64,000 nt of DNA from Phycisphaerales bacterium (lineage in GTDB: Bacteria > Planctomycetota > Phycisphaerae > Phycisphaerales > UBA1924): positions 62,001-126,000 of the forward strand of contig JAGQON010000005.1 in assembly GCA_020427395.1 (NCBI GenBank), written 5' to 3'. Positions 17,920 through 27,154 of the stretch are shown one piece after another. The notes beneath the pieces are model-generated. The model saw nothing but the letters and a program-made list of their open reading frames with translations, was not told where the DNA came from and did no database searches. The stretch's first letter is position 1, and each line of letters starts with the position of its first letter. The position numbers and the translations under genes were made by a program.

Positions 17920-18000
17920 CTGCGTTCCGCTGGGGGTGATTGGGTCAAGAACTATAGAAGGTTGGTGCTGGTCTCGGGCTCAATCGGATAGAGTGTGCCC

Positions 18001-20538
18001 ATGCGTATGCCCCTCAAAAGCCCCGATTCGTCCGCAGCAGGCATCGGCCGATCCGTCTCCCTGCCTGTGCTCGAGTGCGGAGATTCCCGCGCGCCGATGA
18101 TGGGACGCACGAAAACCGCCCGCTGGCGGGCCGGCGTGCTCATCGCCGTCAATGTGCTGATGATCGCGCACCTCATCCAGTGGGCCATCGTCGGCATGAC
18201 CGTCTCGCCCATCGAGCCCAGCGAGAGCATGGAGACGCTCGAGGTCGGGGTCGTCAACGCCGGCGCTATCTTCTTTCTGATCGCCATCGCGTCCACGCTG
18301 CTTTTCGGACGCTTCTTCTGCGGCTGGCTGTGCCACATCGTGGCGCTGCAAGACCTGTGCGCCTGGTTCATGACCAAGCTCGGCGTCCGCCCCAAGCCCT
18401 TCCGCTCGCGCCTGCTGGTCTACTTCCCCATCGGGCTTGGCTTCTATATGTTTGTCTGGCCCAGCTTCAAGCGCGTGGTGCTCAAGCCCATCCTCGAGGC
18501 CAACGCCATCGATTGGCCGTTCTGGCTCCGCCCGGTCGAGCCCATCCACCAGTGGACCAGCGAGATCATGGTCGAGGACTTCTGGGCCACCATGCCGCCG
18601 TGGTACATCGCGGTCCCGTTCCTGATCATCTGCGGCTTCGCGTGCGTGTACTTCCTGGGTGCCAAGGGCTTCTGCACCTACGGCTGCCCCTACGCCGCGT
18701 TCTTCAAGCCCATCGACACGCTCGCGCCCGTCCGCATCCGCGTCAACGACAACTGCCACCAGTGCGGCTACTGCACCAGCGTGTGCACCTCGAATGTGCG
18801 CGTCAGCGAGGAGGTCCGCGACTTCGGCATGGTCGTGGACCCGGGCTGTATGAAGACACTCGATTGCATCAGCGCGTGTCCAAACGACGCGCTCTCGATC
18901 GGGCTCGGCAGGCCCGCGCTGCTGGCCAAGCCCAAGAACGAATCCAAGGCATCGCGCAAGGCGGCACTGGCCAAGCGCCGGGGTCGCTATGACCTCACGC
19001 TGTGGGAGGAGATCGTCGCCGGCGTGCTGATGCTGTGGTTCTTCTACGCGACGCGCGGCATGCTCGACGCGGTCCCCATGCTCCTGGCGGGCGGGCTGGC
19101 GGCCATCGGCGCGATGGTCGCGCTGCTGACCTTCAAGCTCCTGCATCAGGCCAATGTGCGCCTCTACAAGTTCCAGTTCAAGCAGGGCGGGCGGATCAGG
19201 GCCGCGGGCTTCGGGCTGGTACTGCTGGCGTTGGTGTTCGCGGTCGGAAGCGTTTGGTCGGGTCATGCCCGGATGATGCGTTGGCGCGGGGATCTACAGT
19301 TCAATCGCACGGTCGTCCCGCCCGAGGCGCTCATCCGTCCCGAGTTCAATCCTTTGAGCGAGCAGCGCGAGCGGGCTCAGATCGCGGTAGAGGCGTACCG
19401 GCGCGGAGATTCTCCCCGTGATGGCGGTCTGGGCTGGAAGCTCGATCCCGAGCACCGCGTGCGACTGGCATACTTCCTGAGTATGCTCGATCGTCACGAC
19501 GAGGCGCTGGCGCAGCTGCGCCGCGTGATTGACGAGGGTGAACCCACGGATAACTTCGTGCTGCAGGCCGGGCAGGTGCTTCTCCGCGCCATGGATGATC
19601 AGCAGGGCGAGAAAGACATGGCCGCCCATGAAACGGCAAAGCGCGAGGCCCTGCTTTCGTTCTATAGCGATGCGCTCGCGGCCCACCCCGGCCTGCACGC
19701 CATCCGTGCCGAGCTGACCAAGAGCGCCGCGGCCGCGGGCGACACACAGCGCGCCGAGGCGCTCTGGGAGGTCAGCGGCTATGAGGACGACCCGCTGTTC
19801 GCGCTCTCGCGTGGCGGGGCCATCGCGTTCACCGGCAACATCCCCGAAGCGCAGGCTCAGTTCGAGAAGGCCGCCGATTTGGCGGGCAACTCGGAGCACC
19901 CCGCGGGGGTGCTGATCGATATCGCCCGGACGGCGCTGCAGTTCGGCGTGATTGATGTAGCGCGGGAGCTGGCTCTGCGGGCCATCGAAGACGAGCACGC
20001 CACGGCCATGACCTGGGTTGCGGCCGCGGAGATCGCCAGCTTCAGCGGCGACTTTGAGACGGGCCGTGCCCGGATCAATCACGCCACGACGATGCCCCGC
20101 TTCAAGGACCACGCGATGCTTCAGGCGCGGGCCGCCAACGCGATCCTGAGCCCGAGCACCATCGAGGAGGGTCAACGCCGACTCCGAGAGGCGTACGAGA
20201 CAGCCAGCGACCCCTTCGAGCGGTTCACGATCGCCCGGGGGATGGTCTTCGCGGGTGCAAACCTGGGCGCCCCGCCCATGATCGAGGAGGGGCTGGGGCT
20301 GATCGATGAGATCATCGAGGCGAACCCAGACCTGCCCATCATCGAGTACGACCTTGGCAGTCTGTACTACCAGATCGGACTCGGCGAGGAGGGGCTGTCG
20401 CACATCGAGTCGGCGGCTGAGCGCGACCCGACGAACGCGATGATGGCGCAGCGCGCCGGCGAACTCAACAACGCGTTGGGTCACACGATCAAGGCGCAGT
20501 CGTGGTTCGAGGAAGCGGAGCGCCGTCGCGGGCCGTGA
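18001..20538 (+). CDS. NapH/CcoG-like membrane polyferredoxin fused to TPR domain
   Basis: An 845-residue fusion. The N-terminal part (about 35-330) is a NapH/NosR/CcoG-type iron-sulfur membrane protein: transmembrane helices, the paired motifs CGWLC (107-111) and CTYGCP (225-230), and two 4Fe-4S sets, CHQCGYCTSVC (252-262) and CMKTLDCISACP (283-294). Two more hydrophobic segments lie at about 340-400. From about 430 to the end is a helical TPR-like region with repeated A-L/A-x-x-x-P patterns and a final TPR ending in AQSWFEEAE. It probably moves electrons from quinol to a periplasmic partner that the TPRs hold (inference). Alternative starts at 17995 (GTG) and 18007. Confidence 0.85.
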   Translation: MRMPLKSPDSSAAGIGRSVSLPVLECGDSRAPMMGRTKTARWRAGVLIAVNVLMIAHLIQWAIVGMTVSPIEPSESMETLEVGVVNAGAIFFLIAIASTLLFGRFFCGWLCHIVALQDLCAWFMTKLGVRPKPFRSRLLVYFPIGLGFYMFVWPSFKRVVLKPILEANAIDWPFWLRPVEPIHQWTSEIMVEDFWATMPPWYIAVPFLIICGFACVYFLGAKGFCTYGCPYAAFFKPIDTLAPVRIRVNDNCHQCGYCTSVCTSNVRVSEEVRDFGMVVDPGCMKTLDCISACPNDALSIGLGRPALLAKPKNESKASRKAALAKRRGRYDLTLWEEIVAGVLMLWFFYATRGMLDAVPMLLAGGLAAIGAMVALLTFKLLHQANVRLYKFQFKQGGRIRAAGFGLVLLALVFAVGSVWSGHARMMRWRGDLQFNRTVVPPEALIRPEFNPLSEQRERAQIAVEAYRRGDSPRDGGLGWKLDPEHRVRLAYFLSMLDRHDEALAQLRRVIDEGEPTDNFVLQAGQVLLRAMDDQQGEKDMAAHETAKREALLSFYSDALAAHPGLHAIRAELTKSAAAAGDTQRAEALWEVSGYEDDPLFALSRGGAIAFTGNIPEAQAQFEKAADLAGNSEHPAGVLIDIARTALQFGVIDVARELALRAIEDEHATAMTWVAAAEIASFSGDFETGRARINHATTMPRFKDHAMLQARAANAILSPSTIEEGQRRLREAYETASDPFERFTIARGMVFAGANLGAPPMIEEGLGLIDEIIEANPDLPIIEYDLGSLYYQIGLGEEGLSHIESAAERDPTNAMMAQRAGELNNALGHTIKAQSWFEEAERRRGP

Positions 20539-20636: not shown

Positions 20637-20802
20637 CACGCGCAGAAACAGCGACGATTGAGAACCCACGCACTCGCCGATGCGATGCGCCGTGTGTTGC
20701 CATCTGATTCCCAGTGGCGGCACAGATCAAATCGGTCGTCTCACCGCGTGTGAGCGTCCCAGCACAACCACGCCCGAGAACTGGGCACACGGAGTAACAC
20801 CA

Positions 20803-21435
20803 ATGGCAACCCGTACCAAGAAGCACACCGCCAAGAAAACCACCACCGGCAGGAAGACCACCGCCAAGAAGACCGCGGCCCGCAAGCCCGCAGCCAAGAA
20901 GAGCACCACCGCTCGCAAGACCGTGGCCAAGAAGAGCCCCGCTCGCAAGACCGCGGCCACCAAGACCACCGCCAAGAAGACCGTTGCTCGCAAGCCCGCG
21001 GCCAAGAAGACCGCGACCCGCAAGCCCGCGGCCAAGAAGGCAACCACCACCCGCAAGCCGGCCGCCAAGAAGGCAACCACCACCCGCAAGCCGGCCGCCA
21101 AGAAGGCAACCACCGCTCGCAAGACCACCGCCAAGAAGACCGTTGCTCGCAAGACGACCGGTAACAAGACCGTCGCCCGCAAGAGCCCGGCCCGCAAGAG
21201 CGTTGCGAAGAAGACCGTTGCTCGCAAGCCCGCGGCCAAGAAGGCGACCACCGCACGCAAGACCGTGGCCAAGAAGAGCCCGGCACGCAAGACCACCGCT
21301 CGTAAGAGCACGGTCCGCAAGACCGCTCGCAAGACCACGGCACGCAAGACGGTCGCTCGCAAGAGCGTCGCGGGTCGCATCACCCGCAAGCCCGCGGCAC
21401 GCAAGACCACCACACGCAGCCGCCGCGCAGCCTGA
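20803..21435 (+). CDS. Histone H1-like Lys/Ala/Arg-rich DNA-binding protein
   Basis: A 210-residue protein made almost wholly of K, A, R, T, P and V in short modules such as KKTTARK, RKPAAKK and KKSPARK. This is the composition of the C-terminal tails of eukaryotic histone H1 and of bacterial nucleoid proteins of the HC1/HC2 and AlgP type. Such proteins condense DNA nonspecifically. There is no globular domain. ATG 20803 (MATRTKK) has GGAG nine bases upstream; the longer in-frame start lacks the composition. Planctomycetes have unusually condensed nucleoids, which fits. The opposite strand stays open for long stretches only because of the repeat composition. Confidence 0.88.
   Translation: MATRTKKHTAKKTTTGRKTTAKKTAARKPAAKKSTTARKTVAKKSPARKTAATKTTAKKTVARKPAAKKTATRKPAAKKATTTRKPAAKKATTTRKPAAKKATTARKTTAKKTVARKTTGNKTVARKSPARKSVAKKTVARKPAAKKATTARKTVAKKSPARKTTARKSTVRKTARKTTARKTVARKSVAGRITRKPAARKTTTRSRRAA
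21022..21120 (+). repeat. Three tandem 33-bp in-frame units in the histone-like gene
   Basis: Units at 21022-21054, 21055-21087 and 21088-21120 each encode K-P-A-A-K-K-A-T-T-x-R. Units 1 and 2 differ at two positions and units 2 and 3 at two or three. The near-identity at DNA level indicates recent tandem duplication and likely length variation between strains. Confidence 0.9.
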
Positions 21436-21733: not shown

Positions 21734-22411
21734 ATGAAGACTTCGATCGCCATGTTTGCTGTGTGTGCCGTCGCCGCGGGTAGTGTTCTCGCTGACACGG
21801 TTGATCTTCGTTACACCGGGATCGCAGGGGGCACCGGCGCCACGACACTGCGTGTCGAAGGCGGAACCTACTACGCCGGTCACATGAACCATGTGTTCAC
21901 TTCGGGCGATCGTCAGGGCGAGAGCTTCTCGACCTTCTGCATCGACTTCGCCGAGCACGCCAACACCAGCGGCGCGACATACGAGATCGTGGACATCGCC
22001 GACGCTCCCATGCCCGGCACACCCTACGGGCAGGTCATCGCTGACCGCATCAATGCTGTTGTCGCCAACGCCGTAGCCATGGGCTGGATCGATAACAAGC
22101 TCCAGGCCGACACCAACCAGACTGATTACCTCGGCAAGATGGGTGCGATCCAGGCCGCGATCTGGGAAGCATTCGGCAGCGATGTAGAGGTGGGCAACTA
22201 CCGGACCAGCAACTCGCTGGAGAACTACTACAGCATCCTGATGGATGACGAGACCTTCGACAGCAGCCTCCGCCTCAACGGGCTCAAGGCCGTCGTCGCA
22301 GAGGGCCAGCAGGACATGCTCTATGTCGTGCCCCTTCCCCCGGCCGCCTTCGCTGGTCTGGGCATGCTCGGCACCATCGCCGGCGTCCGCACGATCCGCC
22401 GCCGCAAGTAA
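21734..22411 (+). CDS. Exported thioester-domain-like surface protein with VPLP-CTERM-type anchor
   Basis: A 225-residue protein: signal peptide (1-20), a single domain, then VVPLPPAAFAGLGMLG (198-213) and RRRK, a sorting tail of the PEP-CTERM/VPLPA-CTERM kind recognised by exosortases. The domain has FCID with C69 and IQAAIWEAFG with Q140, the arrangement of Cys-Gln thioester (TED/TQXA) adhesin domains that bond covalently to targets. I infer a surface adhesin; no function is proven. ATG 21734 has AGGAGAG upstream. It is a clear paralogue of the gene at 23362. Confidence 0.8.
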   Translation: MKTSIAMFAVCAVAAGSVLADTVDLRYTGIAGGTGATTLRVEGGTYYAGHMNHVFTSGDRQGESFSTFCIDFAEHANTSGATYEIVDIADAPMPGTPYGQVIADRINAVVANAVAMGWIDNKLQADTNQTDYLGKMGAIQAAIWEAFGSDVEVGNYRTSNSLENYYSILMDDETFDSSLRLNGLKAVVAEGQQDMLYVVPLPPAAFAGLGMLGTIAGVRTIRRRK

Positions 22412-22443
22412 GACCACATCCCTGGCAATCTCCAAGACTCGCG

Positions 22444-22476
22444 CACACCCCGATTACCCCCGGGGTGTGTGTTTTT
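22444..22476 (+). terminator. Rho-independent terminator after first VPLP protein
   Basis: Stem CACACCCC / GGGGTGTG with a 10-base loop, followed by TGTTTTT. Confidence 0.85.
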
Positions 22477-22602
22477 CATTGGGCACGCCCACCCCTGATG
22501 TGTGAAGATAGGAAAACTGGCAAAAATTGCCTGAACAAGGGATACGGTTGGGTCCGAGTTGATGATTTCATGATGCGGAAGGTCCTAATTCCCCCTTTGA
22601 TA

Positions 22603-22630
22603 TTGACTTACCGGCAAAACCCTCTACATT
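22603..22630 (+). promoter_or_regulatory. Putative sigma-70 promoter of second VPLP gene
   Basis: TTGACT (22603-22608) and TACATT (22625-22630) with a 16-base spacer. The 321-base gap 22412-22732 holds a terminator, this promoter and no other recognisable gene. Confidence 0.5.
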
Positions 22631-22732
22631 TGATGGTGGGACGATTTGGAGCGCCGGGCTTTGTGCTTGGTGCGTAGGGATCCAAGATGTCGTGGTTCGC
22701 CTTGAAATGCTCGGGTGAACTGAGAGAGTGTG

Positions 22733-23137
22733 ATGTCCATGAATACCAAGACTTTGATGCTGTTGGGGCTCGGTAGCCTCGCTGCGGGTGTGTCGGCTCA
22801 GTCGGCTACGGGATTGCCCGTCGCATCCAGCCAATATGAACTTCCGGGCAGCTACCTGCTCGAGCTTCAGGATGTGGCCGTCGAGGGCGAAGATCGCTCA
22901 ATCGTCGTGCTGTTCAACCCGCCTGCAGATCAGGGGCGTTTCTCGGACCTCGGCTTCCAGGGCAGCGACACCACTGATATGTACGGTCGCAGCAATACCC
23001 GAATCAACGGGCGCCAGAGCTTCTCTCCCAAGGAAGATGACCTGAATGTGGTCCCCCTTCCTCCGGTGACCTTCGCAGGCTTTGGGCTTCTGGCCGGCCT
23101 GGCGGGTGCTCGATACCTGCGTCAGTCCCGCCGCTGA
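22733..23137 (+). CDS. Small exported protein with VPLP-CTERM-type anchor
   Basis: A 134-residue protein with signal peptide (about 1-24, ending GVSAQS), a short mature region of about 75 residues without recognised domain, and the tail VVPLPPVTFAGFGLLAGLAG followed by RYLRQSRR. The tail matches that of the two flanking surface proteins, so the same sorting enzyme probably processes all three. It lacks the Cys/Gln thioester motifs. Start ATG 22733 follows GAGAGAG; ATG 22739 is an alternative. A terminator follows. Confidence 0.75.
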   Translation: MSMNTKTLMLLGLGSLAAGVSAQSATGLPVASSQYELPGSYLLELQDVAVEGEDRSIVVLFNPPADQGRFSDLGFQGSDTTDMYGRSNTRINGRQSFSPKEDDLNVVPLPPVTFAGFGLLAGLAGARYLRQSRR

Positions 23138-23166
23138 TTGACGGCTCAATCGACCCATCATCTCTC

Positions 23167-23193
23167 AAACCCGCCCATGATGGCGGGTTTTTT
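23167..23193 (+). terminator. Rho-independent terminator after second VPLP protein
   Basis: Stem AAACCCGCC / GGCGGGTTT with loop CATGAT running into a T tract (TTTTTTC). Confidence 0.9.
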
Positions 23194-23361
23194 CTTGTGA
23201 AGCAGGAAGACCGATAACCCATGTCGATCGCTCTAAATCGATGAAATTGCCCTAGCTTTGGGGATTATGACGCTGGAATTCGGAGAGACCCTGCTACCCT
23301 ACACCCCCCGTTTGCGGGTGTGTTTGAGGGATATCTGTAACCTAAAGAGGAGAGTCGAATC

Positions 23362-24045
23362 ATGAAGCTTTGTGCGAGCACTTACGCGATCTTCGCGATT
23401 GCGGGTATGGCGGCTGTCGCGAATGCGGCCACCATCGATCTGAACTACACCGGTATTGTGGGCGGCAACGACGCGACGCGTGCGCGCATCGGGTCGAGCA
23501 CCTACCTTGCGGGTCACATGACCCACATGATCATGAGCGGCGCTGACGCGGGTCAGTCGTTCAACACCTTCTGCATCGAGATTGCCGAGTACGCGACCCC
23601 GGGCACCGCGACCTACGAGATCATCGATCTCGCCGACGCGCCCAACCCCGGCAGCTACTACGGGCAGGCCCGGGCTGACGAGGTGAGCGCGATCCTTGCC
23701 AACGCTCTGGCGATGGGCTGGATCGACAGCAAGATGCAGGCGACCAGCGAGTCGGCATCGACCAACCGTGCACGCATGGGCGCGATCCAGGCGGCCATCT
23801 GGGAAGCACTGGGGCACGACTTCCAGGTCAACAGCTCCAGCACCAGCAGCTCGCTGCGGAATCGCTACTCGGAGCTGATGAACGAGAACAGCTTCGACAG
23901 CTCGCTGCGTATGCACGGCCTGCGTGCCGTCGTCGCCGAGGGCCAGCAGGACATGCTCTACATCGTCCCGCTGCCGACCGCCGGCCTTGCCGGTCTGGGC
24001 ATGCTCGGGCTGTGCGCCGGCGTGCGTGCGACCCGTCGCCGCTGA
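23362..24045 (+). CDS. Exported thioester-domain-like surface protein with VPLP-CTERM-type anchor (paralogue)
   Basis: A 227-residue paralogue of the protein at 21734, with the same order: signal peptide (1-22), FCIE with C71, GAIQAAIWEALG with Q143, GLRAVVAEGQQDML, then VPLPTAGLAGLGMLG and a TRRR end. Conserved Cys and Gln in both paralogues support a thioester domain. The leader has a CACCC / GGGTG hairpin just before the GAGGAGAG ribosome-binding site (about 23302-23321). A strong terminator follows. No exosortase gene lies in this window. Confidence 0.8.
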   Translation: MKLCASTYAIFAIAGMAAVANAATIDLNYTGIVGGNDATRARIGSSTYLAGHMTHMIMSGADAGQSFNTFCIEIAEYATPGTATYEIIDLADAPNPGSYYGQARADEVSAILANALAMGWIDSKMQATSESASTNRARMGAIQAAIWEALGHDFQVNSSSTSSSLRNRYSELMNENSFDSSLRMHGLRAVVAEGQQDMLYIVPLPTAGLAGLGMLGLCAGVRATRRR

Positions 24046-25813: not shown

Positions 25814-27154
25814 TTATCGGTCGCTCATGATCAGTCGTTCGAGCCGCTCGAGTCGAGCACGGAGTTCGTCGTTCTCGCGTTGGAGCGATTGGATCTGCTC
25901 AGCATGGAGTTGTTCGAGTTCCTGCATCGCATCGACGACCATGGCCTCGAAGCCGCGGGGCGTGAGCAGGAGTGTGCCATCGGGCGATTCATCGATCCAC
26001 TCGGGCAGGACCTTGCGGATTTCCTGAGCAACGAAACCGGTCTGCGTGCCGGGCAGGTACATGGGGTTGGTGGGGTCGTTGTACTCGTAGGTGATGGGGC
26101 GGAGCGACAGCAGGGTGCTGAGTGAGCCGTGCAGCGGGGCGATGTTCTTTTTCTGGCGTGCGTCGGAGAGGACGGACCAGGGGCCGCCGCCGGGCTTGAA
26201 GGCGTTGGCGGTTGCGAGCAGGTTGTCGTTGAGTATGAAATTGACCCCGTCGAACTGGTTGCCGTTGATGGTTGTGAGTACTGAGCTGATGTTCAGCACC
26301 CCGCCTGATGACAACGAAAGCACTGCGGAGCTGGAGAGATCGAGCGATATACTGGCGTTGAGGTCGATGTTCGAGGTATTGAGTTCGAAACCGCTGGAGT
26401 CGAGCGAGATATCGGAAGCAGCGTTGATCAGCGAGAATGCATTGCCGGCGATCAGGTCGATGTTGCCTTGACCCGCGCTCAGGGTGATGTTCTTCTGCAC
26501 GCTTGTCAGCGTCAGGTTGCCGCCCGCTGAGAGAAGATCGAGGTCGCCCTCTGCGGCGCTGACACCAAAGCCTTCGGCCGCCTGAATGCCTGAGTAGCTA
26601 AAGAGTGCACCAACACCGCCGTTGGGCCGGATGGTGAGTCCCAGGTCATCGTCGAGGACATTGATGGCCAAGCTGCCCTCTTCGTCGATGCTCTCGAAGA
26701 GCCCGTTGGAGATCTCGGAGAGCGATGGGATCCTCGCGTTGAGCGCGTACGCGGCCATGGGTGTCGCGGCCAGCTTCACTCGCGGCGAGAGCGGGAAATC
26801 TTCTTCAATCCCGCCGGGGGGGTCGAGGATGACGATCTGCATGTAGCGCTCGTCGCCGTTGAAGACCGGGTAGCCGTTGAAGGTCTGCCCGAAGTCCAGC
26901 AGCACCGTGAAGCGCCCGCGGTCATCGAACTGGACTCTGCGGGTCAGCTGTGGAGAGACGACATCCTGGATCGTGTTTCCCGTCGGCGACGAGAACAGCT
27001 GGAATGTGAGATCGAGCGCGACATTCGCTGGTCGGTCCTCGAAGTTCAGCTGCCCCTGGAAGCTGAAGGCGTTGGTGGCGGGGGTGCCGTTCTGGGCGCG
27101 GGCCAGCGTGGGCAGCAGCGCGATGATCGCGACGACGATCCTGATCGTGTTCAT
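25814..27154 (-). CDS. Exported protein with C-terminal S74 intramolecular chaperone domain
   Basis: A 446-residue protein with signal peptide (1-20). The N-terminal domain (about 28-150) begins FSFQGQLNFEDRPANVAL and is shared with the protein at 34578. A middle region (150-320) is repetitive and Leu/Ser/Asn-rich (DISLDSS, DLNASISLDLSS), like a beta-helix. The peptidase S74 / ICA domain starts at about 330 (SDARQKKNI) with GFVAQEI and a coiled coil at 408-443. These domains trimerise phage tailspike-type fibres and then cut themselves off at the Ser of SD. A secreted or surface trimeric fibre is likely. Genes for two thioredoxin-fold proteins flank it. Confidence 0.85.
   Translation of the reverse strand: MNTIRIVVAIIALLPTLARAQNGTPATNAFSFQGQLNFEDRPANVALDLTFQLFSSPTGNTIQDVVSPQLTRRVQFDDRGRFTVLLDFGQTFNGYPVFNGDERYMQIVILDPPGGIEEDFPLSPRVKLAATPMAAYALNARIPSLSEISNGLFESIDEEGSLAINVLDDDLGLTIRPNGGVGALFSYSGIQAAEGFGVSAAEGDLDLLSAGGNLTLTSVQKNITLSAGQGNIDLIAGNAFSLINAASDISLDSSGFELNTSNIDLNASISLDLSSSAVLSLSSGGVLNISSVLTTINGNQFDGVNFILNDNLLATANAFKPGGGPWSVLSDARQKKNIAPLHGSLSTLLSLRPITYEYNDPTNPMYLPGTQTGFVAQEIRKVLPEWIDESPDGTLLLTPRGFEAMVVDAMQELEQLHAEQIQSLQRENDELRARLERLERLIMSDR

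Follow-up and report, generated by a model that had tools for sequence, protein, structure and literature searches.

In a window of 64,000 nucleotides from a Phycisphaerales bacterium, two paralogous genes encode the proteins P0001 (TED-A) and P0002 (TED-B), which belong by family and by fold to the thioester domains (TEDs); this assignment is well supported. Sequence and model evidence makes it likely that the two are stalk-less, single-domain, class I-like TEDs that form a thioester, are sorted by an exosortase, and bond covalently in or to a matrix or surface.

The three-gene cassette

P0001 and P0002 are 57% identical, and each combines a signal-peptide-like N-terminus with a C-terminus made up of VPLP, a hydrophobic segment and RRR(K) (Table 1). 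The initial annotation had described them as paralogous VPLP-tailed surface proteins of a planctomycete, with Cys 69/71 in FCI[DE] and Gln 140/143 in IQAAIWEA; the sequence was re-read and the coordinates, lengths and residue numbers were correct, and the planctomycete host is supported. It had further grouped with them a third short VPLP protein: P0003 does lie between the pair (an alternative ATG start at 22739 is possible), but it contains no TED and has only the tail and the location in common with its neighbors. The place of P0003 is conserved, and its middle part poorly conserved.

Table 1. Features of the TED cassette in the window
Feature	Position	Strand	Basis
P0001 (TED-A), 225 aa: signal peptide, thioester domain, VPLP sorting tail	21734..22411	+	
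Cys69 codon (FCID) of P0001, predicted thioester Cys	21938..21940	+	conservation, motif
Gln140 codon (IQAAIW) of P0001, TQxxΦW helix motif, not the predicted partner	22151..22153	+	
Gln193 codon (QDML) of P0001, predicted thioester Gln	22310..22312	+	conservation, fold alignment
VPLP, hydrophobic segment and RRRK of P0001, exosortase-type sorting tail	22328..22408	+	
Predicted intrinsic terminator 3' of P0001	22441..22472	+	
P0003, short secreted protein with VPLP tail, non-TED; 135 aa from GTG	22730..23137	+	
Predicted intrinsic terminator 3' of P0003	23167..23190	+	
P0002 (TED-B), 227 aa: signal peptide, thioester domain, VPLP sorting tail	23362..24045	+	
Cys71 codon (FCIE) of P0002, predicted thioester Cys	23572..23574	+	conservation
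Gln143 codon (IQAAIW) of P0002, TQxxΦW helix motif	23788..23790	+	
Gln196 codon (QDML) of P0002, predicted thioester Gln	23947..23949	+	conservation, fold alignment
VPLP, hydrophobic segment and RRR of P0002, exosortase-type sorting tail	23965..24042	+	
Predicted intrinsic terminator 3' of P0002	24071..24100	+	

Because a terminator is predicted behind each gene, P0001, P0003 and P0002 look like three single-gene units; most PEP-CTERM genes are single-gene units (Haft et al. 2006, PMC1569441). Other Phycisphaerales MAGs show the same arrangement, a short VPLP protein flanked by two TEDs (loci L034, L035, L036 and L039; also L075 and L077), which argues that the cassette is not a product of chance. 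TED-A and TED-B form separate clades in the tree (support 0.99 and 0.97), and orthologues of P0001 were found in 11 other genomes.

Other genes of the window, described by eye, encode a membrane protein that joins a 4Fe-4S ferredoxin-like part to a TPR region (17995-20538, +), a lysine/alanine-rich KKTTARKPAAKK repeat protein with a histone H1-like look (20680-21435, +), and a secreted protein (25814-27154, -) whose C-terminus (DARQKKNI...) resembles the peptidase S74-type chaperone domains of phage tail spikes.

Family, fold and the cysteine-glutamine pair

Pfam TED (PF08341) was the sole family matched at an informative level by P0001 and P0002; P0002 scored 27.7 bits (E 3.8e-6), above the cut-off of 22, and P0001 scored 19.8 bits, slightly under it. 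The same family, and no other Pfam family, was matched by 22 of 27 divergent relatives (E up to 0.05). NCBIfam profiles gave no usable match with P0001, P0002 or P0003, and none of the three matched TQXA in the NCBIfam copy searched, which may lack a TQXA model.

AlphaFold models of P0002 and P0001 (pTM 0.74 and 0.75) were compared with solved structures, and for both models the only matches above Z 8 were TEDs (Z 8.2-10.8; 5a0d, 5a0g, 5a0l, 5a0n, 6fwv, Cpa, and others), with the next fold at Z 3.8 or less; AlphaFold probably saw TEDs in training. Sequence identity in these fold alignments is about 10%. Foldseek alone gave weak Cpa matches (best E 0.063), and sequence profiles run against PDB chains did not find a TED, which places the family of P0001 and P0002 at a great distance from the solved TEDs. 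Membership of the TED family, as proposed in the initial annotation, is borne out by the Pfam search together with the fold match of both predicted structures.

In the model of P0002 a helix (residues 163-172) is followed by a strand (188-192), with no β-sandwich insertion ahead of the last strands, and the region of helix α0 (strand D to helix 1) shows a helical turn of just three residues (90-92); the Gln-bearing strand is modeled with moderate confidence (block pLDDT about 60). For the absence of the insertion, the domain resembles class I TEDs (SfbI-TED, CpTIE-TED, PnTIE-TED, and Cpa-TED; PF08341), with which it also shares the fold (Z 8.6-10.4), the [YFL]C motif, the TQxxΦW helix motif, and a Gln on the last strand that is followed by a hydrophilic residue. 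Class II TEDs (BaTIE, EfmTIE86, and TIE of pLS20) have the same head fold, and BaTIE gave the best Z for P0001 (10.8), but the planctomycete domains lack their β-sandwich insertion of about 75 residues, which separates helix 3 from the last strands. Class I TEDs are N-terminal on LPXTG proteins, whereas those described here belong to a Gram-negative planctomycete and stand directly before an exosortase tail as single domains, without stalk or isopeptide/ester domains; their Cys-Gln spacing is 124-125, and that of three class I TEDs of solved structure is 129-153.

The cysteine motif FCI[DE] fits the published [YFL]CΦζ. As its bond partner the initial annotation had named Gln140/143, a pairing that we reject, because this residue sits in the TQxxΦW helix and not in the last strand; the likely partner is Gln193/196 in a conserved QD[M/Q]L element adjoining the tail, which had been overlooked. 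In Cpa the helix Gln and Trp are dispensable for the thioester, and the bond-forming Gln of TEDs lies on a later or the last strand within the motif ΦQζΦΦ (Walden et al. 2015, PMC4450167; Miller et al. 2018, PMC6194298). QDML fits the latter except at the residue before Gln, which is often non-hydrophobic; ΦQζΦΦ is called weak by the authors of the motif. The bond Gln of CpTIE (267), SfbI (261), and PnTIE (247), placed by where the aligned ranges end in the fold alignments, falls at residues 196-198 or thereabouts of P0002, and not at 143. Another residue, Gln126, was dropped as a candidate partner for its lack of conservation across the wide set.

The wide set comprises 149 TEDs in which Cys, helix Gln and end Gln are all present; 15 rows of the alignment in which one or more of these residues is missing were examined by eye and excluded, namely two degenerate TEDs, L136 (a TED with a frameshifted end), and otherwise tail proteins or fragments pulled in by the tail. 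The three residues are conserved even in relatives about 25% identical to P0002, and the Gln of QDML is found 7 residues ahead of PLP in most members. A single Cys is present in the mature domain of 138 of the 149 members, which argues against a disulfide; the single-Cys and spacing tallies are conditioned on the three residues, and there the unselected D197 and W147 alone count as evidence. A TED-core set was defined with a core-only profile that covered neither the last strand nor the tail, a split by regular expression being too strict. QD precedes the tail in 147 of the 149 tailed TED-core proteins, and the remaining two lack the Cys as well, while both keep IQ..W (helix Gln and Trp). In the degenerate TED paralogues (L057 737-1396, L065 562-1254) Cys and terminal Gln are lost and tail and helix motif are kept; both come from one genus, so that the joint loss was probably one event.

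A thioester between Cys69/71 and Gln140/143 would agree with the full conservation of this Gln in relatives and with its similar spacing in both proteins, but we consider it highly improbable, given the dispensable helix motif in Cpa, the position of the known bond Gln near 196 in the fold alignments, and the two Cys-less degenerate paralogues, which retain the equivalent of Gln140/143 and the Trp yet have no terminal Gln. There is even less to be said for QD as a part of the sorting signal: the element does stand 5-13 residues ahead of the tail motif in nearly all members, but it is missing from all 33 of the tailed proteins that have no TED core, QDML is retained by the tail-less TEDs L072 and L073, and proline-rich spacers part QD from the tail in L182 and L188. 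QD is thus part of the domain, and the pairing of Cys69 with Gln193 in P0001 and of Cys71 with Gln196 in P0002 is well supported; thioester chemistry in the two proteins is probable on sequence and model evidence. The tail-less L072 (1637-4243) and L073 (864-2345) encode long proteins of 868 and 493 aa, in which the TED is followed by dockerin-like and other regions.

Sorting tails, exosortase loci and distribution

All three cassette proteins end in a P-x-P, hydrophobic and basic tail, and the genome encodes two exosortases (170.7 and 146.6 bits in a profile search), the first of which scores above the TIGR02602 cut-off; the form of the tail and the two exosortases support the exosortase-type tail proposed earlier. 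A tail profile retrieved about 11 proteins from the genome: P0003, the four TEDs, and another six that vary in sequence. The set shares with known PEP-CTERM/exosortase substrates (PMC1569441; TIGR03370) the N-terminal signal, the short C-terminal tail of this type, the single-gene units, and a genome with exosortase and exopolysaccharide (EPS) genes. It differs from them in carrying a recognized, potentially reactive domain and in a tail that scores below the curated cut-offs for VPLPA-CTERM and PEP-CTERM; VPLPA-CTERM (TIGR03370) gave no match over cut-off anywhere in the genome.

A second TED pair of the same genome is located at the end of an exosortase/EPS gene cluster, with the order NTP-transferase-like protein, exosortase, EpsI-like protein, BY-kinase, sugar transferase, giant TPR protein, TED, TED. 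The cluster with its terminal TEDs is conserved in 13 relatives of two genera. One or two TEDs stand at the cluster end in 13 of 14 related loci, which were picked by TED match and not by their neighbors, and the fourteenth (L156) is cut by a contig end. In three genomes of other genera (G075, G078, and G104) an exosortase gene is followed, about 7-11 kb downstream and in the same orientation, by a TED. The cassette in the window is located away from the exosortase/EPS cluster of its genome, with no exosortase adjacent to it, and the listed TEDs of genomes G074 and G096 are likewise unlinked.

Among 163 genomes of the same family, Pfam TED was found in 42, and a closer profile matched in 105, some of these matches being shared tails only. 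Across the phylum, sampled evenly, a broad profile matched 23 of 392 genomes, the majority from the same order, and Pfam TED matched 7; there was no match in 14 named control genomes, and a plasmid search found no relative. Some genomes contain tandem TED arrays, with up to six copies in one; an array of this kind at L078 (3704-8480, genome G160) suggests copy-number expansion.

Proposed function and significance

P0001 and P0002 would be exported by Sec and form an internal thioester (Cys69-Gln193 and Cys71-Gln196), and a host exosortase would process them at the VPLP tail; the TEDs would sit on the cell surface or in exopolysaccharide; a target amine or hydroxyl may then attack the thioester to give a covalent bond, for matrix cross-linking or for adhesion. 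Thioester formation, exosortase cleavage, the bound target, and the matrix as site of action are steps that we infer, and the label 'covalent adhesin' given to the proteins at the outset is of the same kind.

Conserved Cys and Gln could also be retained in a TED fold that forms no thioester, with the residues structural or non-covalent in action, and the low identity of P0001 and P0002 to tested TEDs in the fold alignments (about 10%) leaves room for this; we regard it as unlikely, because fold, motif, lone Cys, strict pairing with the Gln and joint loss are all as in working TEDs, and 12 of 12 domains tested by Walden et al. showed the 17-Da mass loss of an internal thioester (2015, PMC4450167). 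A less remote alternative, though still the less probable one, is that the proteins are true thioester TEDs that serve as adhesins toward foreign surfaces, such as those of algae, particles or other cells, and do not cross-link a matrix. Characterized TEDs of known role serve in attachment to a host or partner, including pLS20 mating (PMC8092201), and tandem arrays with up to six copies per genome would suit diverse targets. Against this, the proteins have no stalk, the Gln being about 7 residues ahead of the PLP of the tail, whereas N-terminal TEDs are carried on long stalks, and the sister TEDs have a conserved location in the exosortase/EPS cluster. The missing stalk and the EPS linkage of the sister TEDs make a function within or at the matrix more likely than long-range adhesion, and the linkage points to the matrix of the cell itself at least as much as to a foreign surface. 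As a tentative extension to the Phycisphaerales, exosortase-sorted TEDs might link protein to matrix covalently in the exopolysaccharide layer; a single gene cluster would then provide for the polymer, for the exosortase, and for a reactive protein that bonds to this polymer.

In the portion of the open-access literature that was accessible, no report was found that joins TEDs with exosortase/PEP-CTERM tails, and none was found in open-access literature that links 'thioester domain' with planctomycetes and adhesin. TEDs had been reported as found exclusively in Gram-positive bacteria (Walden et al. 2015, PMC4450167); in contrast to that report, a family of TEDs is common in one family of the Gram-negative Phycisphaerales. 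The roles of exosortase substrates are mostly unknown, and with the TEDs these substrates gain a concrete, testable chemistry.
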